Below are positions 2,450 to 25,716 of a DNA stretch of 63,183 nt, one piece after another. The translations under genes and the position numbers were made by a program. Every line of letters starts with the position of its first letter. Within the stretch, counting starts at the first letter, position 1. A model generated the notes under the pieces. It was not told the DNA's origin. It was given only the letters and a program-made list of their open reading frames with translations, and ran no database searches. The DNA is from a virus. The stretch covers positions 1 to 63,183 of IMG/VR virus record IMGVR_UViG_3300017963_000287. One strand, written 5' to 3'.

Positions 2450-3466
2450 GTGAGCGAACGCTTGGCAGAGGCGTTCAAGGAGTTCGCGCTCGGGCGCAGG
2501 TTTCGGCATCCTCGGACCGGCAACCAGGTGCTCTTCGCCTCCCTCCCCCCGGAGGAGCAGCGGCGCCTTTTCCAGCAGTGGATGAGAGGCCGCGAGCAGC
2601 TCGAGGGGATCCGCCGGTCGCCGCGGGCTCTGCAGAAGATGAAGGAGCAGCAGGAGCAGATGCGCCTGGCTCGGGCCGACGTGGAGCCCGTCCGGCAGCG
2701 GAGCCAGTACTCGTGCATGAGCGCGAGCATGGCGATGTGCCTGCGCGCTCTCGGCGTCGACTGCCTCGAGGACGAGGTGAACCGGGTCATGGGATCGCGT
2801 CCGATGAAGGGCGCCTCCTGGGAGAACGCCCTCGCGTGTGGTCAACACTACGGCATGCGCTGCACGCTCGTCTGTCCGGCTACCACGCCGCAGCTCAGGG
2901 AGTGGACGGACCGGGGCGTCCCCGTGATGATCGCGTGGAATCCCGAGAACAGGCCGTGGTCCCACGCCTCGGTGGTGTTCGACGTGGACGAGGACCTGAA
3001 CGTCCACGTGGCCGACCCGAACATCCCGGACCCCGACGAGACCGTGCGCGTGGTTCCGAAGTCGGAGTTCTACCGCAAGTGGTACGAGAAGTGGCCAGAC
3101 TACCTGGTGAGGAGACCGGCCATGGCGGTGGAGCGCGAGGTCACGACCGACGGGCGTCAGGTCGTGGCCTTCGACGGCCGCAGGGTCGCGGCGCGCCACG
3201 GAACGCAGGCTAGGGAGGCCCTGGAGGACTACGTCCAGGCCGTGACGAACCTCGAGACGAGCACGGACCTCGTTATGCTCGCGACGAACAGGCTGCGGTT
3301 CCTCGGCCTTGAACCGCACGAGGACGAATACCCCTTCGCGGAGCCCATAGATCACGTGGCGTCCGACATCTTCCGGTGGCGCGGCGAGGTGGACGCCAAG
3401 TACGCCCCGGACGGCACCGTAAAGATCGCCCGCCGCGTGGCCCACAGATACCTGGAGAGGAAGTGA
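2450..3466 (+). CDS. C39-like cysteine peptidase with HPxTGN module
   Basis: 338 residues, GTG start at 2450. Residues 17-44 carry the module FRHPRTGNQVLFASLP followed by EEQ and QQW, which recurs in two large proteins at 7767-13028. Around 80-200 is a papain-like peptidase core of the C39 type: the nucleophile context RQRSQYSCMSASMAMCLRAL (Cys89), a histidine in WSHASVVFDVD (His172) and an aspartate in HVADPN (Asp189). The C-terminus ends in RVAHRYLERK, a short helix motif also found at domain boundaries of other enzymes here. It probably cleaves peptides, perhaps other virion proteins; the substrate is unknown. Catalytic residues are read by pattern only. Confidence 0.6.
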   Translation: MSERLAEAFKEFALGRRFRHPRTGNQVLFASLPPEEQRRLFQQWMRGREQLEGIRRSPRALQKMKEQQEQMRLARADVEPVRQRSQYSCMSASMAMCLRALGVDCLEDEVNRVMGSRPMKGASWENALACGQHYGMRCTLVCPATTPQLREWTDRGVPVMIAWNPENRPWSHASVVFDVDEDLNVHVADPNIPDPDETVRVVPKSEFYRKWYEKWPDYLVRRPAMAVEREVTTDGRQVVAFDGRRVAARHGTQAREALEDYVQAVTNLETSTDLVMLATNRLRFLGLEPHEDEYPFAEPIDHVASDIFRWRGEVDAKYAPDGTVKIARRVAHRYLERK

Positions 3467-3467
3467 C

Positions 3468-4379
3468 ATGCCGGCTCAGTACGCACACCTCGATGGCCGC
3501 CGCTACGTGAACCAGGACTTCGTCGACGAGGTCCGTCAGGCGTACCCCGCCACGACGAAGAAGATCCCGCTAGGCTTCATCACCTACGTCGGGTGGACCG
3601 GGAAGGACGAGGTGCTCTTCACCCAGCAGGAGCCCCTGCCGGACGTCGAGATGGAGGGCCCCGTGTTCCAGGTGAATTTCCAGCCCGACAATCCGCGCGC
3701 CTTCACGGACGGCATCCTCGCCAAGGTCAAGCACACGACGAAGTCGGCCAGCTCCGGGGCCCGCGTCCGCGCGCGGTCTCGGGAGGCGACGCTCGACCGG
3801 TGGGGTCCGACCCTCGGCCTCTCGAAGGAGGCCCGGGCCGCGGGAGGCCTGTACGGCTACACCCGCGCCGTGCAGGCCTCCTGCGAGGCCGCGGTTCGCA
3901 GGCTCAACCGTGCCGCCGCGAAACTCGCCAGCGGGGCCGCGGCTCGCGACCGTCGAGTCGTGGACTTCCTCCAGACCCACGCCGGCAGAGGCCAGAGCCT
4001 CCCCGCCCGAGTCCTGCTCGCCGCCTACAAGAACGCGCTTCCGAGGCTCGCCGCCGACGAGGGAGGCGTCGACAAGGAGGCCGCTCCATCTCGTCGCGGG
4101 ATGTACGGCTACCCCGTGAAGACCGCCAAGCGCGGCCTGAGCCTCTGCGCGGCTCTCCGGGAGACCGCCGGCATCATCGGCGCCGAGATGCACGCGCGTC
4201 GGGCGGCACTTCACGGGTCGATCACCGGCTTCTTCGGGCAACACGGCGACATCGGCAAGTGCGCCGCGAGCAGCCTCATCCTGTCCTCGTACCCCGACGC
4301 GAGCGTTCGGCTGCGGCGCGCCTCGGAGGAGGCGCCCACGAGCGTCGGCGACTGGCTCGACTACGACCTCTCGCGCTAG
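3468..4379 (+). CDS. Hypothetical protein, 303 aa
   Basis: 303 residues; ATG one base after the preceding stop. The N-terminal 90 residues look beta-rich and ordered (IPLGFITYVGWTGKDEVLFT, PVFQVNFQPDNPRAFTDG). The rest is Ala/Arg-rich and helical, with two similar Gly-Tyr motifs (AAGGLYGYTRAVQ and RRGMYGYPVKTAK). No family recognised. The stop codon overlaps the stop of the converging sigma-like gene. Transcriptional coupling with 2107-3466 suggests a shared phage function. Confidence 0.65.
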   Translation: MPAQYAHLDGRRYVNQDFVDEVRQAYPATTKKIPLGFITYVGWTGKDEVLFTQQEPLPDVEMEGPVFQVNFQPDNPRAFTDGILAKVKHTTKSASSGARVRARSREATLDRWGPTLGLSKEARAAGGLYGYTRAVQASCEAAVRRLNRAAAKLASGAAARDRRVVDFLQTHAGRGQSLPARVLLAAYKNALPRLAADEGGVDKEAAPSRRGMYGYPVKTAKRGLSLCAALRETAGIIGAEMHARRAALHGSITGFFGQHGDIGKCAASSLILSSYPDASVRLRRASEEAPTSVGDWLDYDLSR

Positions 4380-7766: not shown

Positions 7767-10700
7767 ATGGCGAGTCCTCTCGACCTCCGTCGCCTGGCGA
7801 CCCGCATCGAGGAGCTGCAGCGCGTGCGCACCCACGGCTGGCATCCGGCGGACGAGATGCGCTTCAAGAGCCGGCTTCCCGCCGGACGCGACAGGCTCAG
7901 GCTCCCCGATCCGGTCGAGCTGCGAGCCCGAGCCGATGAGATCGCCCGCGGGGACCGCTCGCGGATGGCGGAGATCGCGAGGAGCTGGCGTGCGTGGATG
8001 CAGACGGCGCTCGACATGGAGGGCCTCGTCCACGACAACGATCCCCGCAACCCCGGGCGCCTGGTCCGCGATCTCCAGCGCGGGAAGTTTCCTCGTCGGT
8101 TCGCGCGGCTCCTGGTCAGCCAGGCCCTCTCGAGGACGGCTCGGTTCGTGAGCCGAGAGTTCCTCCACTGGGTCGACCGGCAAAGGTTCCGGCATCCGCA
8201 GACGGGCAACCGCGTGAAGTACAAGTCGCTGCCCGCCCGGGAGCAGAGGCGCATCCACGAGCAGTGGTCTCGACGGCAGTCCCCGGGAGCCGCCTCCTTC
8301 CCGGCCGAAAACGTACAGGAGCCCAAGCCGGGGAAACGACGAGAGGAACCCTGGAAGTGGGGGGACATCGACGAGACGGCTCACGTGGACCGCGGCTCGA
8401 TCACGTACAAGCAGTCCGAGGTCTCCGGGAGGGCTAGGGTCGAGGGGAAGAGCCGGGTGCGGGGACGCGTGGCCGACGAGGCCGTAGTGCGCAACGCGGT
8501 CATCGGCGACGGAGCCTCCGTGTCGGGCAGCGCGACCGTCGAGGACGCCGTCGTGAACGGGCCAGCTCGCGTTGAGGGAAGGGCTCGCGTGGGGCCTGGC
8601 GGCCGCGTTCAGGGAAGGGCCACGGTTGGAGGCGACACGGAGGTCAGGCGCGCGACCCTTCGGGGCGGCAAGTGGAACGGCCAGAAACTCACCAAGGCCG
8701 GAGAGTGGCACGACTCCTACGACCAGGAGACCATCGACGCACTCGAGCGAGAGTTCGAGGAGCCCGGCAGCCAGGGGGCGGCGGCCGCGGGAGACCTGCC
8801 GATCCGGCTCATGAGTCACTACCTGGTCTCGGGAGGGAGCACGAAGGGACTGCTCGGGGGCGACGCCAGTCGCGAGAGAATGGCGAGGCGGCTGCGGAAG
8901 CACGCGATCCGCAACCGGGGCGAGCTCGGGTCCGGGGCGGCACGCGTCGCCGACCGTTTCGCGGAGATCTCCGACGAGGGGTGGGACGTGGTGATGAGAC
9001 ACGCCAGGCGCGGTGCCGAAGCGAAGAAGAGGAGGGCGTTCATGCTTTACCAGATCGTGAAACTCGCGCTTGAAGAGCCGGAGCATCGCCCGGTGGTGAT
9101 GCCCCTGGTTCGGATGGCCCGGGAGAGACGCGTCGCGGCGAATGTTTCCGAGCTGCGGACCGCGGTGATCCGTGCGGCGTACGACGCGGCGAGCGCCGCG
9201 ACGCGTGCCGCCCTAGTCCGTGCCGTGAAGGCGGCAGACCATCTCCTGGCGAGCGAGGCCGCAGATCTCGAGGGGGCCATCACGCTGACCCGCGAGGAGC
9301 GCGCCGGACTCGTCAGAATTGCCTTCACGACGCCGGACGCCGGACGCCGCAGGCAGATCCTCGGCATTCTGAAGGAGGCCAGGTACAGCAAGGGGTTCCT
9401 CAAGTGGGTGCAGAACAAGGAGTTCAAGCATCCCGAGACGGGGAACATGGTCCAGTTCATCTCGCTGCCTTCCCAGGCCCAGAAGGAGGTCCACAAGCAG
9501 TGGAAGGCGGGCAAGAAGGAGTGGGCGCAGCAGCACAAGCCCGAGGGGCTCTCCAAGAAGACCGAGCTCACGCCCGAGAAGTTCGACGCGCTCAAGGAGG
9601 GCGACCTCCTCTGGATTTCCTGGCAGCCGTTCGTGTTCCACAAGGTCACGGGCAAGAGCAAGACCTCGACCGGAAAGGCGACGGTCAGGCTCTCCCGCGT
9701 GGACAAGGAGGACCCCTCTAAGGTGGTGGAGGACGAGGACTTCTGGCTCCACCGCTCGTCGGCTGGCAGCAAGACCCACGATATCCACGTGGTACCCCCC
9801 GACCTCGCGAAGCCGAAGGCGGAGGAGCCGAAGGAGGAGGCGGAGGAGCCGAAGGCACCTCCAGCGGGGCCCGAGATTCCCACGCCGGAAACCGAGGCGC
9901 CGGAGGAACCACAGAAGCCCGAGCCGCAGGCCGAGAAGCCGGAACCTGAGGAGCCGAAGGAACCCGACATCGACAGCCCGTCCTCGATCAAGCCGGGGAT
10001 GTTCCTACAGAACGCCTGGGGCACCGTCGGCAAGGTGACGAGCATGCTGCCCGACGGCGGCTTCCGCTTCCGTACGTGGGACTCTAAGGCGGGCAAATAC
10101 AGCGGTACCAAGAAGATAACGCAGCAGGCAGCGCAGGAGTGGTTCGACAAGGGCAACAAGTTCACGTCCGTCGAGGATCCCGCGCCCGCGAAGCCAAAGA
10201 AGAAAAAGAAGAAGAAGGAGGAGGAGGAGAAGCCCGCGTTCAAACCCACCGGTAAGCACAAGGACCGCGAGGAGCTCCGCGGCAAGGCGCAGAAGGAGTC
10301 GACGCCCGAGACCAAGATCGAGGCACCCAAGTGGCTACACGACCAGATCATAGCGGTGGGGGCGCCTCCCACCATGGCGCCCGAGATGAAGAAGGAGACG
10401 GTGGAGAAGTTCGAGAACATCACCGTCGGTGCCGGGCACAAAATGCTCGGCAACATCGAGCAGGCCCTGGCCAGCCCCGGTGGTGAATACCTGGAGGCCC
10501 TAGAGACTCTCGGGTACAGCCCCGCGGGCCTCAAGACGCTGCAGAGGAAGCTGCGGAAGGCCCTGAGACCCTACGCGGGACGCAGGTACAACCAGGCCGT
10601 GCTCGGGGTCGCCAACGAGTGGGACCTCGAGGGCGAGGACGCCGACGAGCTGTACGACTTCAAGGCCGACAAGCCCGCGTGGGGCAAGAAGCTCACCGAC

Positions 10701-10838
10701 GCCCAGCTCATGCAGAAGTTCCTCTCCAAGGCCAGCCCCGAGACTAGGGAACGGATGCAGGGCATGTCGGTGGCCGACTTCATGATCATGTACAAGTCGA
10801 TCATGGCCGAGGACGAGGAGGAAGAGGAGGCGACATAG
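7767..10838 (+). CDS. Modular protein with beta-helix and two HPxTGN modules
   Basis: 1023 residues. Module 1 (130-170): REFLHWVDRQRFRHPQTGN then VKYKSLP and EQW. Residues about 204-298 form hexapeptide repeats (VSGRARVEGKSRVRGRV, ASVSGSATVEDAVV) typical of a left-handed beta-helix. A helical region carries repeats of the type LVRIAFTTPDAGRRRQILG (513-532), leading into module 2 (540-580): FLKWVQNKEFKHPETGN, ISLP, KQW. A Pro/Glu/Lys-rich linker (about 680-745), an SH3-like segment (PGMFLQNAWGTVGKVTSMLP) and a C-terminal helical domain follow. The last 330 residues are paralogous to the next gene. It ends in an acidic tail. Probably a virion or injected protein by architecture; no enzyme motif seen. 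Confidence 0.7.
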   Translation: MASPLDLRRLATRIEELQRVRTHGWHPADEMRFKSRLPAGRDRLRLPDPVELRARADEIARGDRSRMAEIARSWRAWMQTALDMEGLVHDNDPRNPGRLVRDLQRGKFPRRFARLLVSQALSRTARFVSREFLHWVDRQRFRHPQTGNRVKYKSLPAREQRRIHEQWSRRQSPGAASFPAENVQEPKPGKRREEPWKWGDIDETAHVDRGSITYKQSEVSGRARVEGKSRVRGRVADEAVVRNAVIGDGASVSGSATVEDAVVNGPARVEGRARVGPGGRVQGRATVGGDTEVRRATLRGGKWNGQKLTKAGEWHDSYDQETIDALEREFEEPGSQGAAAAGDLPIRLMSHYLVSGGSTKGLLGGDASRERMARRLRKHAIRNRGELGSGAARVADRFAEISDEGWDVVMRHARRGAEAKKRRAFMLYQIVKLALEEPEHRPVVMPLVRMARERRVAANVSELRTAVIRAAYDAASAATRAALVRAVKAADHLLASEAADLEGAITLTREERAGLVRIAFTTPDAGRRRQILGILKEARYSKGFLKWVQNKEFKHPETGNMVQFISLPSQAQKEVHKQWKAGKKEWAQQHKPEGLSKKTELTPEKFDALKEGDLLWISWQPFVFHKVTGKSKTSTGKATVRLSRVDKEDPSKVVEDEDFWLHRSSAGSKTHDIHVVPPDLAKPKAEEPKEEAEEPKAPPAGPEIPTPETEAPEEPQKPEPQAEKPEPEEPKEPDIDSPSSIKPGMFLQNAWGTVGKVTSMLPDGGFRFRTWDSKAGKYSGTKKITQQAAQEWFDKGNKFTSVEDPAPAKPKKKKKKKEEEEKPAFKPTGKHKDREELRGKAQKESTPETKIEAPKWLHDQIIAVGAPPTMAPEMKKETVEKFENITVGAGHKMLGNIEQALASPGGEYLEALETLGYSPAGLKTLQRKLRKALRPYAGRRYNQAVLGVANEWDLEGEDADELYDFKADKPAWGKKLTDAQLMQKFLSKASPETRERMQGMSVADFMIMYKSIMAEDEEEEEAT

Positions 10839-13028
10839 ATGGCGCTTGAACTCGACTCCTCGGGGCGCCGTCTCGTGCGGATGGCCTACCGCGTCACCGA
10901 TCCCGAGCTGCGACGTCGGATCCTGGAGGATCTCCGCGCTGCTCGACAGCCCTCCCTCTCGCCGCTGGCTCGGAAACTCGTACGCGTGGCGTTCGCCACG
11001 ACGGACGAGACGCTGCGGCGCGGCATCCTCGATTCCATCCGCACGGCCGCATACGCGCCCGAGTTCCTCGAGTGGGCCAGAGCTCGCAAGCATCGCAAGT
11101 CGACCACCGGGAACCGGGTCAAGTGGGACTCGCTGACCTCGCAGGAGAAGGCTCAGGTCCACGCCCAGTGGCAGCAGCAGGCGCAGGGGCAGCCCGCCGA
11201 GGGAAAACCTGCGCAGCCCCAGGCGCCCTTCACCGGGGTGTCGGGGGAAGTCTACGAGAAGCTGAGCGAGTTCTACCCCCGCAGGCCGAAGGACATGGAC
11301 GAGCTTCGCGAGATGCACGAGAAGGGCGAGGCGTGGCACCTTCCGGCCGTCGCCATGACGGCGGGCGGAGGCATGAAGTTCTGGGAGGCGCGGGGGGAGG
11401 ACGGCAAGATCTCGATTCGGTGGGGACCTGTCGGAGGCTGGCAGCAGAGCAAGCCGGGCAAGAGCCTTGAGGACGCCATGAAGCGTTTCCAGGCCAAGGC
11501 GCACAAGGGCTACATGGTCGCCGGGCCGGGCCTCGCCATGTCCTTCTCCGGCGGCCCTGTCGGCATGAGCGGAGACACGCTCTGGAAACGTCTCGAGAAG
11601 GACTACGGGGACGATCCCGCGAAGATGCGGAAAGTGGTCGAGGCGGCCGTGTCGCACCTGGAGAACCTTGACTCCACGGATCCGGGCCAGTGGCCCGACC
11701 TCGCGAGCACGGCCAAGGAGCTCCGCGAGAGGTTGAAGGAACAGGCCAAGGAGCCGGAGAAGCCGGAGAAGCCGAAGAAACCCGAGAAGAAGAAGGTGCA
11801 GCCGAAGCAGACCGATCCCCTCACGAAGACGCAGAGGGAGGAGGTGGACGAGCTCGTCATGACGATGAGCGGCGAGGTCACCGCGGTCGGCGACCTCGTC
11901 AAATACGTCGACAAGATCGACGCGATCCTGCCAGAGGGCCTCACGACCGCGCAGCGCCGCGGGATCTTCGAGGGCGTCGCGAAGGATCTGGCCGACCACC
12001 TCGACACGGCGGCGTTCACCGTCGACGATCCTGGCGATTCCCAGCTCTATCACGACACGGCCTACACCATTCGCCAGCACGCGAAGGAGTGGGCCAAGCA
12101 ACAGTCCGAGAAGAAGCCGGTGAAGAAGGAGCCCGAGAAGGAGCCCGAGAAGCCGAAGGAGAAACTCGAGATCGGAACCGAAGTGACGAGCACCGATCAG
12201 ATGGTCCCGGGCATGTTCATCTCGAACAGCGCGGGCATTGTCGGCAAGATTACTAGCATCCTCCCTGACGGCGGGGTTCGCTTTCGCACTTTCGACACGG
12301 GCGCCGGCGAGTACCGGAAGGGTACCAAGACGATGTCGAAGGAAGATGCGGAGGCGTGGTTCGCGAAGGGCAACTCCTTCACGGTCACCGAGGATCCGGC
12401 GCCGAAGAAACCCAAGAAGCCCGAGAAGAAGGAGCCCGGGGCTCCGAAACCGACCGGCAAGTACAAGGACCGCAAGGAGCTCCGCGGCAAGGGCAAGAAG
12501 AAACCGACCGACAAGGTCGAGGCCAAGACGGCGCTGGGCGAGAAGTTGATCCCGCCGGGGCTCAAAGGACCGCAGCGGGACGCGGCCGAGAAACAGCTCG
12601 AGGGCCTCACCTACGAGGGGCTCTCCAAGATCCGTGGTCACCTGGCAGCGGCGCTTGCCAGCCCCGACAGTCCCTACGCCAAGGGCCTCGCGAAGGCGGG
12701 CTACGACACGAGCGAGAAGGCCCTCAAGGGCCTCCAGGCACTTATCGACGAGCGGCTTGAGGACGTCAAGGGACGTAGGTACCACTCGGACGTGCTGGGA
12801 GTCGCCAACAAGCACGACATGGAGGGAGAGGACGCCGACGCGCTTCACGAATTCAAGGCGAGCAAGCCGAAGCGCGGCAAGAAGCTCACCGACCAGGAGC
12901 TCATGCAGAGGTTCCTGTCCAAAGCCAGTCCCGAGACGCGGGAGCGCATGCAGGACATGCCCGTGGCCGACTTCATGGTAGCCTACAAGGCCATCATGGC
13001 CGACGAGGAAGAAGAGGAGGCCGCATGA
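10839..13028 (+). CDS. Paralogous modular protein with WGR-like domain
   Basis: 729 residues, ATG directly after the preceding stop. Two helical repeats at 10-37 and 44-71 (RLVRMAYRVTDPELRRRILE, KLVRVAFATTDETLRRGILD) lead into a module at 71-111 (FLEWARARKH, TTGNRVKWDSL, HAQW) in which HP is replaced. Residues about 178-228 (FWEARGEDGKISIRWGPVGG, then EDAMKRFQAKAHKGY) resemble a WGR domain, a nucleic-acid-associated fold known from PARPs, with WGP in place of WGR. Lys/Pro/Glu linkers follow. From residue about 440 the protein matches the C-terminal part of the preceding gene (LPDGGVRFRTFDTGAGEY, LTDQELMQRFLSKASPETRE). Function unknown; likely a tandem duplication with N-terminal diversification. 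Confidence 0.7.
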   Translation: MALELDSSGRRLVRMAYRVTDPELRRRILEDLRAARQPSLSPLARKLVRVAFATTDETLRRGILDSIRTAAYAPEFLEWARARKHRKSTTGNRVKWDSLTSQEKAQVHAQWQQQAQGQPAEGKPAQPQAPFTGVSGEVYEKLSEFYPRRPKDMDELREMHEKGEAWHLPAVAMTAGGGMKFWEARGEDGKISIRWGPVGGWQQSKPGKSLEDAMKRFQAKAHKGYMVAGPGLAMSFSGGPVGMSGDTLWKRLEKDYGDDPAKMRKVVEAAVSHLENLDSTDPGQWPDLASTAKELRERLKEQAKEPEKPEKPKKPEKKKVQPKQTDPLTKTQREEVDELVMTMSGEVTAVGDLVKYVDKIDAILPEGLTTAQRRGIFEGVAKDLADHLDTAAFTVDDPGDSQLYHDTAYTIRQHAKEWAKQQSEKKPVKKEPEKEPEKPKEKLEIGTEVTSTDQMVPGMFISNSAGIVGKITSILPDGGVRFRTFDTGAGEYRKGTKTMSKEDAEAWFAKGNSFTVTEDPAPKKPKKPEKKEPGAPKPTGKYKDRKELRGKGKKKPTDKVEAKTALGEKLIPPGLKGPQRDAAEKQLEGLTYEGLSKIRGHLAAALASPDSPYAKGLAKAGYDTSEKALKGLQALIDERLEDVKGRRYHSDVLGVANKHDMEGEDADALHEFKASKPKRGKKLTDQELMQRFLSKASPETRERMQDMPVADFMVAYKAIMADEEEEEAA

Positions 13029-13441
13029 CTCCCCGCGACCGAAAGCTGATCCGACTGGCCTTCCACGCTCGGGATCCCGACCTGCGGCGTCGGGCCGTCG
13101 GGCACCTGCGCAGCGCGAGGGAGAAGCTTCCGAGGCAGCCGTGGTCGGTGATGCAGGAGGCCCGGGAGGAGGGGTTGATCGCTGGCGAGGACGAGGATGA
13201 CCTTGAACTCGAGGCCGTCACCCTGTTCGACTCCCCCGAGGAGGTTGTGGAGGAGGTCTTGAAGACGGCCGCGTACGCCAAAGAATTCCTTCAGGGGGCG
13301 GACGGCACGAAGACCGAGAAGAAGTCGAAAAAGACTTCGTTGAACTCGGAGGATCGCGCGCTCATCAAGATGGCCCGCGCGACCGGGTGCCCGGAGTTGC
13401 GCCGCAGGCTCGTGAGGCTCGTCATCCCGTCCGACGGCTGA
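13025..13441 (+). CDS. Small protein with LVRxAF-type helical repeats
   Basis: 138 residues, ATG overlapping the preceding stop as ATGA, so translationally coupled. It contains the helix repeat found in its two upstream neighbours at both ends: KLIRLAFHARDPDLRRRAVG (residues 7-26) and ALIKMARATGCPELRRRLVR (112-131). Between them, KTAAYAKEFLQGADGTKTEK resembles the linker before the HPxTGN module, but the module itself is missing. It looks like a cut-down member of the same family. Function unknown. Confidence 0.65.
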   Translation: MTPRDRKLIRLAFHARDPDLRRRAVGHLRSAREKLPRQPWSVMQEAREEGLIAGEDEDDLELEAVTLFDSPEEVVEEVLKTAAYAKEFLQGADGTKTEKKSKKTSLNSEDRALIKMARATGCPELRRRLVRLVIPSDG

Positions 13442-13500
13442 GCCCGAACCGCTCCGCGGGTGTACAACCACCGGGACCTCACATCCCAGGTAGGTTTAGC

Positions 13501-14037
13501 GTGCCCGAAACCCTCGAACAGAGGTACGACCGAGTTTCTAGGGAACAGAAACGTACCCTGGTCGTCCGCGCCGACGACTTCCGGTGCGACGAAAGGGGCG
13601 TCTACGACCACGGGGGCGACATGGGCGTGATCGCGTGGCGCATGGCGGAGCGCGTGTTCAGGGAGCTGCTGCCGGCCGTGGACGAGGTCAGGGCTCTGGT
13701 TGGGGCGCCCGGAGCCGGAAAGACGACCTGGTTAGAGCTTTGCGGCGTTCGTGGCGTCCTGTACCTCGACACCACGCTGTCTCGCAGGCTGTCGCGTCGC
13801 CAGGTGTGCATGGCCGCGCTGGCGGCGGACAGGGTGATCGACTGCGTGTTCATCGACACCGAGCTCGAGGTGTGCCTCGCGCGCAACCGGAAGAGATCTC
13901 CCTCGCGGCGGGTGCCCGACGACCGGGTGCGAGACGCACACCACAGACTCGTCCTGTGTCCGCCTGACGTGGACGAGGGCTGGCGCAGGGTCTTGCATGT
14001 CTCCGGGGGCCCGGACCTCACCTGGGTGCTCCTGTGA
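13501..14037 (+). CDS. P-loop kinase, polynucleotide-kinase-like
   Basis: 178 residues from a GTG at 13501; an earlier in-frame ATG would overlap the preceding gene and adds only Arg/Pro-rich sequence. Walker A is ALVGAPGAGKTTWLEL; a Walker B-like strand is DCVFIDTELEVCLARN, followed by an Arg-rich lid (RNRKRSPSRRVPDDRV). This arrangement fits zeta-toxin or polynucleotide kinase-type P-loop kinases, and the lid with R-x-VP is close to that of phage 5' kinases. In T4, such a kinase repairs cut tRNA together with an RNA ligase. The phosphatase half of T4 Pnk is not present. The substrate (DNA, RNA or small molecule) cannot be told from sequence. It lies just before the candidate non-coding RNA. 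Confidence 0.6.
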   Translation: MPETLEQRYDRVSREQKRTLVVRADDFRCDERGVYDHGGDMGVIAWRMAERVFRELLPAVDEVRALVGAPGAGKTTWLELCGVRGVLYLDTTLSRRLSRRQVCMAALAADRVIDCVFIDTELEVCLARNRKRSPSRRVPDDRVRDAHHRLVLCPPDVDEGWRRVLHVSGGPDLTWVLL

Positions 14038-14055
14038 ACGCAGGTGACTAAGCGC

Positions 14056-14084
14056 TTGACACGGGCTCGCACGATCTCTAGTGT
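14056..14084 (+). promoter_or_regulatory. Sigma-70-type promoter for the structured RNA
   Basis: TTGACA at 14056-14061, a 17-base spacer, then TAGTGT at 14079-14084, which keeps T, A and the final T of a -10 element. The predicted start at about 14091 coincides with the first base of the longest-range helix in the RNA downstream. It begins 19 bases after the stop of the kinase gene. Confidence 0.55.
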
Positions 14085-14090
14085 GCGTCG

Positions 14091-14600
14091 GCCGTCTCCC
14101 CTCCGCCTCGTGCGGAGGCGAACCCCCGCGGGTGGAACGAGCTAACGCAAGTAGCGCGTTCTGGGGGTCGAGCGGAACGCTCGGGCGCGTCTAACGCCAA
14201 GCATTCAGGTTCCCCGACGCAATCCTCGACGGGAACTCTTGGTATCGGCGCCCACGGGTGGGGAAGCTGGGGAAACCCAGGAGGGACGACGAAGCCTCCG
14301 AGACGGCCCCTCAGGCCACCTACGCAAGAGGTCACGAACCGGCGAGGGAAAAGGTTGCACTGGACGGGCTGACCCTCCGAAAGCTGGGTCCTCAGGATGA
14401 CTCGCCACGACCAAGCCTCCGACCGACGACCTCCTTCGTGCCCAGGGCGCGAAGGAGACCCATCGATCAGGGCGCGGTCCGCGGGGCACTCCCACCTCGC
14501 CTCTCGCCCTCGAGAGCGGGACTCCGTCGACGTCCTCTGGATGGGACCCGACGGTCGTCCTGCCTCAGGTTCAATTAGGGTTTGTAGAGAGGTGTCGTCT
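14091..14600 (+). ncRNA. Candidate large structured non-coding RNA
   Basis: No credible reading frame here, yet the DNA is full of complementary stems. Domain 1 (14091-14307) is closed by an exact 8-base pairing, GCCGTCTC (14091-14098) with GAGACGGC (14300-14307). Inside are CCTCCGC/GCGGAGG (14100-14118), ACCCCC/GGGGGT (14122/14168) around a nested hairpin, CGAGCG-GAA-CGCTCG (14169-14183), GGTTCCC/GGGAACT (14208/14237), CTGGG-GAAA-CCCAG (14267-14280, a GNRA loop) and GGAGG/CCTCC (14280/14299). Domain 2 is closed by GGCGAG/CTCGCC (14341/14406). Domain 3 is closed by GACGACC/GGTCGTC (14425/14559) and holds CTCCTTCG/CGAAGGAG (14431/14457) and CTCTCG-CCCT-CGAGAG (14501-14516). Two hairpins share the loop ACGCAAG. 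Size and setting recall giant phage RNAs such as GOLLD and ROOL, but I cannot assign a class; it does not match tmRNA or RNase P signatures. The 3' end is uncertain. Confidence 0.6.
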
Positions 14601-14826
14601 GTCCGAAGTCATCATCTGACGAACACGAGTCCTGAAAATCCATCCTCACGTTTCACGAATCTTCACCATCATCCCCATTCACCTTCTCACGGTAGTCACG
14701 ACGGGGAAGCGAGCTGGACCACGACCACGGGGAGGAAACTCGAGACCTAGGAGGAGCGGAAGAGGCTAAAAACCCTGACGGGGGAGGCTAGTCGGGTAGC
14801 CCGTCTATGCCCCTCTTTAATGGAAG
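14601..14826 (+). other. Gene-free leader between RNA and next gene
   Basis: About 225 bases with no credible gene. The part 14620-14700 is pyrimidine- and A-rich with little obvious pairing. A hairpin GGCTA-GTCGGG-TAGCC lies at 14786-14801, enclosed by AAGAGG (14760-14765) and CCTCTT (14812-14817). I see no U-run terminator, so the RNA may run on into the next gene or end by another route. Confidence 0.35.
14795..14809 (+). promoter_or_regulatory. Weak candidate phage promoter box
   Basis: GGTAGCCCGTCTATG, matching GGT-N3-C-N3-CTAT(C/G) but without the T-run. CTATG lies 22 bases before the ATG at 14827. It overlaps the hairpin described for this leader, so the match could be chance. Confidence 0.3.
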
Positions 14827-15234
14827 ATGTCCGACAAGCGCAGGGCGCGGCAGGGGAGCGTCGGGGGGAACCTGACCCCGAAGCAGGCCAAGACCGTGCT
14901 GGCAGCTCCCGTCTACGCCATCCTGTCGGGACGTGCGGTTCCCATCTTTCCGGGAACCAACCTGGCGAGCTCGTCGGGGTTGGTGGGCATATTCAGGAAA
15001 CCCGGCAACCACTGGCGCGCCATCTCGGGCCGCGTGGCCGCCGGGTATCCGGTCTGGGTCAACGGGAGGCAGTGGAACCGCGCCGTGGTTCCGGTGCTGA
15101 CCGACCCTCGCTGGTCGACCGCGAACCCCGTGTTCGCCCAGACGGCCTCGACCAACCTCAATCACGTGATCGACTTGATCGGGGAGGCCCTCGCCCAGAG
15201 CTTCCACGAGGCCGGATACGGACCGCTGCCCTGA
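14827..15234 (+). CDS. Hypothetical protein, 135 aa
   Basis: 135 residues, ATG at 14827. The N-terminus is basic (MSDKRRARQGSVGGNLTPKQ). The rest contains ordered hydrophobic stretches (VLAAPVYAILSGRAVPIFPG, HWRAISGRVAAGYPVWVNG) and a helical end (LNHVIDLIGEALAQSF). An ATG at 14820 in another frame was rejected because that frame has no protein-like character until 15234. First protein gene after the candidate RNA; its stop overlaps the next start as TGATG. No family recognised. Confidence 0.65.
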   Translation: MSDKRRARQGSVGGNLTPKQAKTVLAAPVYAILSGRAVPIFPGTNLASSSGLVGIFRKPGNHWRAISGRVAAGYPVWVNGRQWNRAVVPVLTDPRWSTANPVFAQTASTNLNHVIDLIGEALAQSFHEAGYGPLP

Positions 15235-15464
15235 TGGCCTCGGTATCGTGGCCCGACATGGGCGAGAACAAGCCTCCTTCCCAGCTCGCTCCCGGCGCCG
15301 TTGAGCGCCCTGAGAACGAGGTCGTGTGGGTCTCCTGCCGCGCCAAGAACTCCTGCAACGGGCGGCGCGCCAGGGTTCTTTTGAAGAAGAACGACGGGAT
15401 TCACGGAACGTGGATTCAGTACGTCTGCCTGACGTGCAACACCCCGTTTTCCATCCGCGTCTAG
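15234..15464 (+). CDS. Small zinc-ribbon-like protein, 76 aa
   Basis: 76 residues, ATG overlapping the previous stop. The C-terminal half carries two cysteine pairs, VSCRAKNSC and YVCLTCNTPF, separated by a basic hairpin (NGRRARVLLKKNDGIHGTW). This is the pattern of a small zinc ribbon that binds nucleic acid or a partner protein. No closer family recognised. Strong codon bias to G/C at third positions up to the cysteine region supports coding. Confidence 0.6.
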   Translation: MASVSWPDMGENKPPSQLAPGAVERPENEVVWVSCRAKNSCNGRRARVLLKKNDGIHGTWIQYVCLTCNTPFSIRV

Positions 15465-24773: not shown

Positions 24774-25716
24774 CGAGCAGAAGAGGCCCGCGCCCGTCGT
24801 CGATCTCGAGCGGATCGGGCGGACGTACGCCGAGCTCAAGGACATGGAGGTCAAGCTCGACCCTAATCCCATCGAGTACGGCCCCAAGCGGTTCAACAAC
24901 CGCATCGCCCGCGTCAGGGCCCTCCTGAACCGCGTCGATCAGATCTTCCTCCAGATCTCGGAGGATCTCCACTACTTCCAGCGAGACATCAACGCCCGGC
25001 GCACCCTCTACGAGCTCGAGAAGCGCGAGCTGCTCGTGAACGATCCGAGGTGTCGGGTGGGGCGCTCGCAGCAGGAGCGCGAGGCCCTGGCCGACGTGCA
25101 GCTCAGGGACCAGATCGAGAAGATTCAGAACCTCGAGGCGCAGGCCCACGACCTGGAGACGCTCATGATCTCGGTCAAGTCCAAGCGGACGGACCTCAAG
25201 AACGTTCAGGGTCGGATGAAGGACCAGATGAAGCTCATCGAGCACGACATCGGGATGGGCGCGCGCTGGGGCGGCGATGGCGGCCCTTCGCTCCTCAGCG
25301 ACGGGGTGAAGGAGATCGACGAGATGCTTGCCAGCGTGGACGAGCGCATGAGCTGGACGGACGAGGGCGACGAGGTGGCCCCCACCTCGGGGAAGGACGC
25401 GACCGCGGACGAGCCCGACGAGGACGACGAGGAAGTCGAGGCGAGCGACGACCAGGATCCGGCCCCGCAGGCGTCCGAGGAGCCCGTGCTCGAGTTCGGG
25501 GCGCCCGACGGAGAGGCCGTTCCCGACATCGCCGAGCTGCTGCCCTCGACCGAGGAGCAGACGCCCCTTCCCGACGACGGCGTCGAGCGGGACGCCGACG
25601 ACTTCCTGACGAATTTCGATCCAGAGACGGAGGACGGCGAGGAAAGCGCGGAGGGAGGAGAAGCCCCAACCTCGGACGGGATCGATGACCTGATCGCGAG
25701 CTTCGCCGACGACTAG
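24751..25716 (+). CDS. Coiled-coil protein with long acidic tail
   Basis: 321 residues. Residues 15-180 are helical with heptad character (RVRALLNRVDQIFLQISEDL, LRDQIEKIQNLEAQAHDLET). From about 210 the chain is acidic and disordered (DEPDEDDEEVEASDDQD) and ends IDDLIASFADD. An acidic tail ending in hydrophobics recalls protein-binding tips of single-stranded DNA-binding proteins, but there is no OB fold here. It sits between the helicase and a candidate ssDNA-binding protein, so a replication or recombination accessory role is likely. No family recognised. Confidence 0.65.
   Translation: MTATKASSEQKRPAPVVDLERIGRTYAELKDMEVKLDPNPIEYGPKRFNNRIARVRALLNRVDQIFLQISEDLHYFQRDINARRTLYELEKRELLVNDPRCRVGRSQQEREALADVQLRDQIEKIQNLEAQAHDLETLMISVKSKRTDLKNVQGRMKDQMKLIEHDIGMGARWGGDGGPSLLSDGVKEIDEMLASVDERMSWTDEGDEVAPTSGKDATADEPDEDDEEVEASDDQDPAPQASEEPVLEFGAPDGEAVPDIAELLPSTEEQTPLPDDGVERDADDFLTNFDPETEDGEESAEGGEAPTSDGIDDLIASFADD

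Follow-up and report, generated by a model that had tools for sequence, protein, structure and literature searches.

Few large structured RNAs of phages are known, and their function is unknown. OLE RNA is known from bacterial chromosomes and not from phages, and long riboswitch-type leaders precede nucleotide-metabolism operons. According to a published account, many GOLLD RNAs exceed 800 nt and their 3' region is conserved in all members, ROOL forms a homo-octameric nanocage with multiple pseudoknots, and both are often found near tRNA islands (PMC12286853). Two large structured phage RNAs are described there as building RNA-only cages (PMC12286853). In the available main text of a survey of huge phages, 'non-coding' occurs once and 'structured RNA' and 'GOLLD' do not occur (PMC7162821). 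Among the matches listed from the open PMC literature, no title or abstract start reports a huge-phage RNA such as the one described here, which is not proof of absence.

Here we describe a structured RNA in the window, by which we mean the whole 63,183-base virus record IMGVR_UViG_3300017963_000287. The window encodes terminase, portal, ribonucleotide reductase, clamp loader, recombinase, primase and exonucleases, a gene set that points to a large tailed phage. An initial annotation, made from the letters of the window, had proposed a giant structured non-coding RNA with its own promoter in a gap of about 790 bases between two genes. The gap is there, 789 bases long (14038-14826), and a structured RNA starting at or next to position 14091 is supported by covariation, by a conserved distance between the promoter-like site and the first helix, and by the finding that the relatives keep no reading frame in common; the word 'giant' is generous for some 500 nt. 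We are nearly certain that there is a real structured RNA here, with putative limits at 14091 and about 14592. It is probably a stand-alone non-coding RNA of a new family that would act in trans, rather than a leader. The family is so far found in three huge-phage genomes, an indication that huge phages contain RNA genes unrecognised by Rfam.

That no class signature could be recognised agrees with the database searches. Rfam 15 yields no family at gathering score in the window or in its relatives, and a search up to E 10 over 14000-14850 returns a sole, unrelated match, PyrR209 (E 5.1). Covariance models of GOLLD, ROOL, group I and group II introns, HEARO, RNase P and tmRNA find no match, and ARAGORN finds no tmRNA. 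The suggested likeness to GOLLD and ROOL is therefore one of kind and not of membership. Like GOLLD, the RNA is a large structured phage RNA with one part far more conserved than the rest, a GAAA loop and a disordered linker; unlike GOLLD as described, it measures about 500 nt, carries its conserved part at the 5' and not the 3' side, and lies before replication and nucleotide genes of huge phages instead of beside tRNA genes (PMC12286853). With ROOL it shares large size, structure, a phage host and the lack of a known function or protein partner, whereas it has no Rfam match and no tRNA island (PMC12286853). OLE RNA is likewise large and structured (PMC12286853), and here too an Rfam match is missing. 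The one tRNA predicted in the window is more than 10 kb away, a tRNA-Ser(GCU) called by ARAGORN at 25025-25105 on the minus strand, which lies within long ORFs on both strands and is probably a false positive. As a riboswitch-type leader would, the RNA precedes a series of genes ending in ribonucleotide reductase, whereas no conserved expression platform was seen and no Rfam riboswitch matches.

The locus and its relatives

The gap separates a gene resembling AAA proteins and polynucleotide kinases from a gene for a 135-aa protein (Table 1), which is followed by a small ORF with paired cysteines, clamp-loader-like genes and the ribonucleotide reductase gene. The 135-aa protein has no match in Pfam or PHROGs, and its predicted structure (pLDDT 76.9) has none at E 0.001 in PDB or BFVD. 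Among nine flanking ORFs scanned for families, none is a nuclease or reverse transcriptase.

An identical copy of the gap (100% over 787 bases) is present in the 230,069-base contig G001 (L002), and the twin and the window were counted as one sequence. Homologues were sought among terminase relatives (11 loci, including the twin), and whole records were searched with the gap DNA. One relative, IMGVR_UViG_3300009529_000010 (55,204 bases; hereafter G007), gave one stray match and three collinear ones (E 1.5e-13, 1.3e-4 and 0.07), the latter immediately before the counterpart of the 135-aa gene. A second, IMGVR_UViG_3300022719_000283 (618,736 bases; hereafter G013), was found by a loop-pattern scan of viral sequences, which returned four stretches: the twin, G007, G013 and one false. 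Scored with R1, a covariance model made from just the window and G007 sequences, G013 reaches 111.8 bits (E 7.5e-28). Over the P1 domain, nucleotides are identical at 138 of 199 aligned positions between the window and G013, at 118 of 187 between the window and G007, and at 131 of 190 between G013 and G007.

Both relatives share the order kinase-like gene, RNA, 135-aa gene, clamp-loader-like gene and, further on, reductase. The kinase-like gene is 40% identical over 181 residues in G007 and 57% over 176 in G013, and the 135-aa protein 51% and 47% identical, respectively.

With a model of all three sequences (R2), strong matches among 49 records were confined to the twin, G007 and G013, and weak ones in LR745208.1 (E 0.475) and G001 (E 0.74) were taken as chance. 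A candidate in L122 (15.6 bits) was rejected, as mainly its loop letters agree and it is apparently coding sequence; nine matches to an 18-letter pattern in species genomes, none above 21.4 bits and mostly the P8 hairpin alone, were likewise attributed to chance. At the sensitivity used, collections of phages, plasmids and species genomes yielded no further member, and blastn of the gap DNA gave no match in the phage and plasmid collections. A search by the 135-aa protein family led to the window, G007 and G013 genomes only, and one with the kinase-like gene to the twin contig only. The clamp-loader-like gene occurs in 6 of the 11 records searched, of which G007 and G013 carry the RNA. The more distant LR745208.1, G005 and G011 have this gene and no detectable RNA copy, with nothing above chance at the like place. 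In G004 the gene begins 399 bases from the contig start, so that the site of the RNA is not covered, and G003 and G008, which start inside the reductase gene, were left out of the judgement of presence or absence.

Table 1. Features of the RNA locus and its flanking genes (positions in the window)
Feature	Position	Strand	Evidence or remark
AAA/polynucleotide-kinase-like gene, upstream	13387..14037	+	Pfam AAA_33, E 3.7e-7; true start possibly further in
Promoter-like TTGACA-N17-TAGTGT	TTGACA 14056-14061, TAGTGT 14079-14084	+	putative function
Structured RNA	14091..14592	+	homologues in L091 and L124, covariation; predicted 5' end taken from promoter-like site
5' domain closed by P1	14091..14307 (P1 14091-14098 with 14300-14307)	+	P1 strands GCCGTCTC and GAGACGGC; paired in 3/3
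Hairpin P2	14100..14118 (14100-14106 with 14112-14118)	+	3/7 pairs doubly changed
P3, variable apical part	14122..14168 (14122-14127 with 14163-14168)	+	paired in 3/3; 1/7 pairs doubly changed
Invariant CGAGCGGAACG	14169..14179	+	identical in 3/3
P5	14183..14253 (14183-14188 with 14248-14253)	+	encloses invariant TAACG / TAT internal loop and P6
P6 and extension P6c	14197..14242 (P6 14197-14201 with 14238-14242; P6c 14209-14213 with 14232-14236)	+	covariation
Most conserved block	14258..14299	+	GTGGGGAAGC; P7 with GAAA tetraloop; P8 with loop GACRACGAAG
Conserved AAAGGTTGCAC, loop or junction	14350..14360	+	AAGGTTGCAC in 3/3
Conserved TCAGGATGA	14392..14400	+	TCARGATGA in 3/3
Tentative closing helix P13	14500..14592 (CCTCTC 14500-14505 with GAGAGG 14587-14592)	+	1/6 pairs doubly changed
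Hairpin P12	14524..14554	+	conserved loop TCTGGATG (14536-14543); covariation
Unstructured G-poor, C-rich linker	14611..14690	+	7 G in 80 nt
135-aa gene, downstream	14827..15234	+	adjoins RNA in 3/3 genomes

A conserved fold on the plus strand

The lack of a credible protein, as first annotated, extends to the relatives. Stop codons interrupt 17 of the 18 frames over the three RNAs, the exception being an antisense frame of 166 residues in the window, and the spacing of conserved blocks differs by non-multiples of three. Translation gives matches in more than one frame and equally on either strand, the pattern to be expected if the DNA letters themselves are conserved, and no protein frame is conserved across the relatives.

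The folding energy of the window sequence gives little guidance. For 14091-14600 the z score is -1.76, with 6 of 100 shuffles folding equally well, and the opposite strand reaches -1.40; a repeat over 14092-14592 with 60 shuffles gave -1.41 for the window, -2.12 for G013 and -3.0 for G007. Folding better than shuffled sequence had been proposed as a check on the RNA; in the window this measure is weak (z -1.8 and -1.4) and would have misled, so that comparative evidence is needed. Nor do the dozen or more perfect stems of the first description count by themselves in DNA as GC-rich as this, although the helices it named are in place. Seven helices were examined by single-sequence partition functions, and all reach a pairing of at least 0.8 in every sequence apart from two cases, P5 of the window (0.30) and P3 of G013 (0.48).

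Comparison of the three sequences is far more informative. A hand alignment of the 5' domain (A4; three rows with N padding, fitted to the structure) contains 48 pairs in nine helices, with standard pairs in 97.8% of 139 cells. Compensatory changes, proposed at the outset as a further check, are present: both sides differ in 20 of the 48 pairs, and none of 500 shuffles reaches any of five covariation measures. When the partners are slid by 1-3 columns, 0-4 doubly changed pairs are left. RNAalifold on this alignment gives z -10 (0/500), against -1.0 for a neighbouring coding gene. To guard against this fitting of A4, a MAFFT alignment made blind to structure was also scored, with z -8.4 on the sense strand (none of 300 column shuffles as good) and -5.4 on the other. 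The same fold, written in different letters in distant relatives, indicates that the fold matters. Conserved on the plus strand are the fold of a 5' domain of about 215 nt (P1-P8) and the 3' hairpin P12.

The 8-base helix said to close a large domain is where it was first placed, and it pairs with compensatory changes in both relatives. In P1, three of the seven counted pairs are doubly changed (CCGTCTC/GAGACGG in the window, CTGCCTT/AGGGCAG in G013 and CTGTCTT/AAGACAG in G007), the eighth pair is G-C in the window and G-U in G013 and G007, and the single-sequence pairing probability is 0.92-0.95. P5 is changed on both sides in five of six pairs with every cell paired (GGGCGC/GCGCCC, GAGAGC/GCTCTC and GCTCTG/CAGAGC in the same order), its low probability in the window alone notwithstanding, and every cell is likewise paired in P6 and P6c (6 of 10 pairs doubly changed). 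P2 is less regular, with 85% of its cells paired and three non-standard cells, all in G013. With a downstream CTCG, the segment CGAGCGGAACG could form a perfect hairpin in the window and in G007. In G013 it could not, which makes the hairpin doubtful although the letters are conserved. Between 14258 and 14299, 39 of 42 columns are identical in all three sequences. The GNRA hairpin noticed in the window is present in this block as GAAA (14268-14279), and the outer pair of P7 changes from T-A to A-T; P8 is invariant and thus uninformative on pairing.

Conservation is patchy over 14308-14592, and a blind alignment of the whole region 3' of P1 gives z -2.5, with 4 of 300 shuffles equally good. Pairs of P12 and P13 were counted by script on hand-chosen strands. 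P12 has five of eight pairs doubly changed, no non-standard cell among 24, and a loop that reads TCTGGATG or TCTGGTTG; P13 has one non-standard cell among 18 and, by eye, a rival local hairpin in the window. Two further domains had been delimited in this part. The strands GGCGAG (14341-14346) and CTCGCC (14401-14406) exist, but their conservation is unconfirmed and the relatives show, by eye, shorter alternatives; GACGACC (14425-14431) and GGTCGTC (14553-14559) also exist, but no counterpart was seen in the relatives. Kissing loops formed by palindromes near 14509 do not exceed chance by a rough estimate and were therefore dropped.

Ends of the RNA and competing readings

The promoter proposed earlier has its two hexamers and 17-base spacing in place, and its distance to the first helix is conserved, but a consensus promoter scan calls none in any of the three loci, and G007 lacks TTGACA. 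G013 has TTGACA-N17-TAGTTT, spaced exactly as in the window, and G007 has TAATGT at the same distance. From the second hexamer, kept as TARTKT, to the equivalent of C14092, the first of the seven counted P1 pairs, there are 7 nt in all three sequences. TAGTGT agrees with TATAAT at three of six places. Both strands of the 63-kb window together contain a single TTGACA-N17-TAGTNT, as does the 8.8-kb G013 locus, and in each case it lies at the RNA; the looser TTGACA-N15..19-TANNNT is found twice in the window, both strands included. Transcription would start at about G14091, which would leave the first base sealed in P1.

The 3' limit is uncertain and was placed at the last tentative helix. A scan of 13300-15300 of the window shows no terminator-like site. 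Immediately before the promoter site of G007 is a terminator-like hairpin with tail TTTCCTTTTA, which would separate the site from the upstream gene; another match there overlaps the presumed RNA start (L091 2352-2334), and the G007 locus has five such matches for 1.9 expected. In G013 one terminator-like site follows P12; with 2 such sites found for 1.8 expected, it does not exceed chance. Beyond the last helix is the linker, whose G content is among the lowest 0.005% of the window's 80-nt stretches. The like place has about 1 G in 80 in G007 and about 9 in G013, where it is not the most C-over-G stretch of its locus (16 vs 22 elsewhere). The transcript may end or be trimmed in this linker, and its rut-like composition makes Rho a candidate for ending it.

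The principal competing reading, which we hold to be rather unlikely, is a long cis-acting leader: the 5' part of an mRNA running from the 135-aa gene to the reductase, acting by ligand or protein binding, attenuation or processing. The RNA directly precedes the same gene series in all three genomes, and no terminator-like site was found after it in the window. Its last helix and the start codon are some 230-300 nt apart. The shared operon is equally expected of a leader; other neighbouring genes keep their order as well, so that gene order does not discriminate between the two readings. Against a leader, those 230-300 nt include the unstructured linker, and their alignment, a poor one of three sequences, yields no consensus fold (z +1.1; 265 of 300 shuffles equally good). 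Hence no conserved expression platform is seen, and no conserved structure was found to reach a ribosome-binding site or terminator. Moreover, a leader switch of 500 nt would be a large one.

A mobile or catalytic RNA that has degenerated or escaped recognition (a group I or II intron, a HEARO/omega RNA, or an RNA like RNase P or tmRNA) would suit the size and the GNRA hairpin. Huge phages carry such elements, and group II introns are reported in phages. The failure of every Rfam family, the missing nuclease and reverse transcriptase genes in the nine flanking ORFs scanned and the identical position in three of three genomes make this reading highly improbable. That there is no RNA at all, and that the stems belong to a DNA element such as an origin of replication or a packaging region, or are palindromes arising by chance at high GC content, is scarcely credible: the window's own sequence at this place does fold within 2 sd of its shuffles with both strands alike, but covariation exceeds every shuffle, the consensus fold is better on one strand, and the G-U pairs retained in P1, P2, P3 and P6 would not be kept by DNA pairing or by an RNA from the other strand.

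We therefore favour a stand-alone RNA, for a start sealed in a helix at promoter distance, an unstructured linker and the lack of a conserved expression platform all point that way; this reading draws on three independent sequences and a hand-fitted alignment of 48 pairs. Such an RNA could act in trans during infection, serving as a compact scaffold of RNA or RNP. Perhaps the GAAA tetraloop of P7 docks into the internal loop (UAACG/UAU) that lies between P5 and P6 and that we take to resemble a tetraloop receptor. A new family of about 500 nt lends itself to study: RNAs of this length are convenient for in vitro transcription and cryo-EM, the 135-aa neighbour is an obvious candidate partner, and the sharply conserved core, the constant neighbouring gene and the likely start add to its tractability.

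Like places in more distant genomes and other observations

More tentatively, the RNA could represent a new large phage RNA class of one huge-phage lineage that folds, alone or with the 135-aa protein, into a particle as GOLLD and ROOL do, with diverged versions possibly held in stretches of 0.75-0.87 kb in LR745208.1 and in G005 and G011, which are 99.96% identical to each other. In G011 (L146 3283-4032), and nearly identically in G005 (L147), 750 bases without an ORF of 80 aa lie before a gene whose 106-aa product is related to the 135-aa protein (hhalign E 1.8e-5). This stretch is AT-rich and without a strong fold (z -0.8 over 511 bases); perhaps it holds a diverged RNA, perhaps not. The like place in LR745208.1 comprises 870 bases before a 108-aa ORF, the relation of which to the 135-aa protein is unsure (hhalign E 0.007, probability 5%). 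An ORF of 195 aa in these bases is of doubtful reality. The stretch folds strongly (z -5.2 over 537 bases), to which an 18-nt inverted repeat that looks perfect contributes.

Several features at these loci were noted in passing. At the like place of LR745208.1 (L145 4242-4370) a 24-nt repeat that ends in GTGGATTGAAACA occurs twice; the copies are 92% alike, their starts lie 105 nt apart, and each begins, by eye, within a small hairpin; we take them to look like CRISPR-type repeats. The reductase gene of G007 (L149, about 2853-4043, minus strand) has an in-frame insert of about 397 aa whose first residue is Cys and which ends in His-Asn before a Ser. It contains a LAGLIDADG domain (Pfam E 2.7e-15) and resembles intein/Hint families weakly, below their cut-offs; to judge by its sequence the insert is an intein, absent from the 869-aa copy of the window. 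Upstream in the window, two adjacent long genes (7767-13028) share a part of about 307 residues at 52% identity; in the first, a stretch resembling bactofilin scores below the Pfam cut-off, and pieces of it recur in several proteins of relatives. Finally, two neighbouring proteins of LR745208.1 (L145 1547 and 2301) carry a motif like LRxxVIRLAHENPALRPHLLPLLK, which recurs more loosely at 13361 in the window and is possibly a shared terminal signal.
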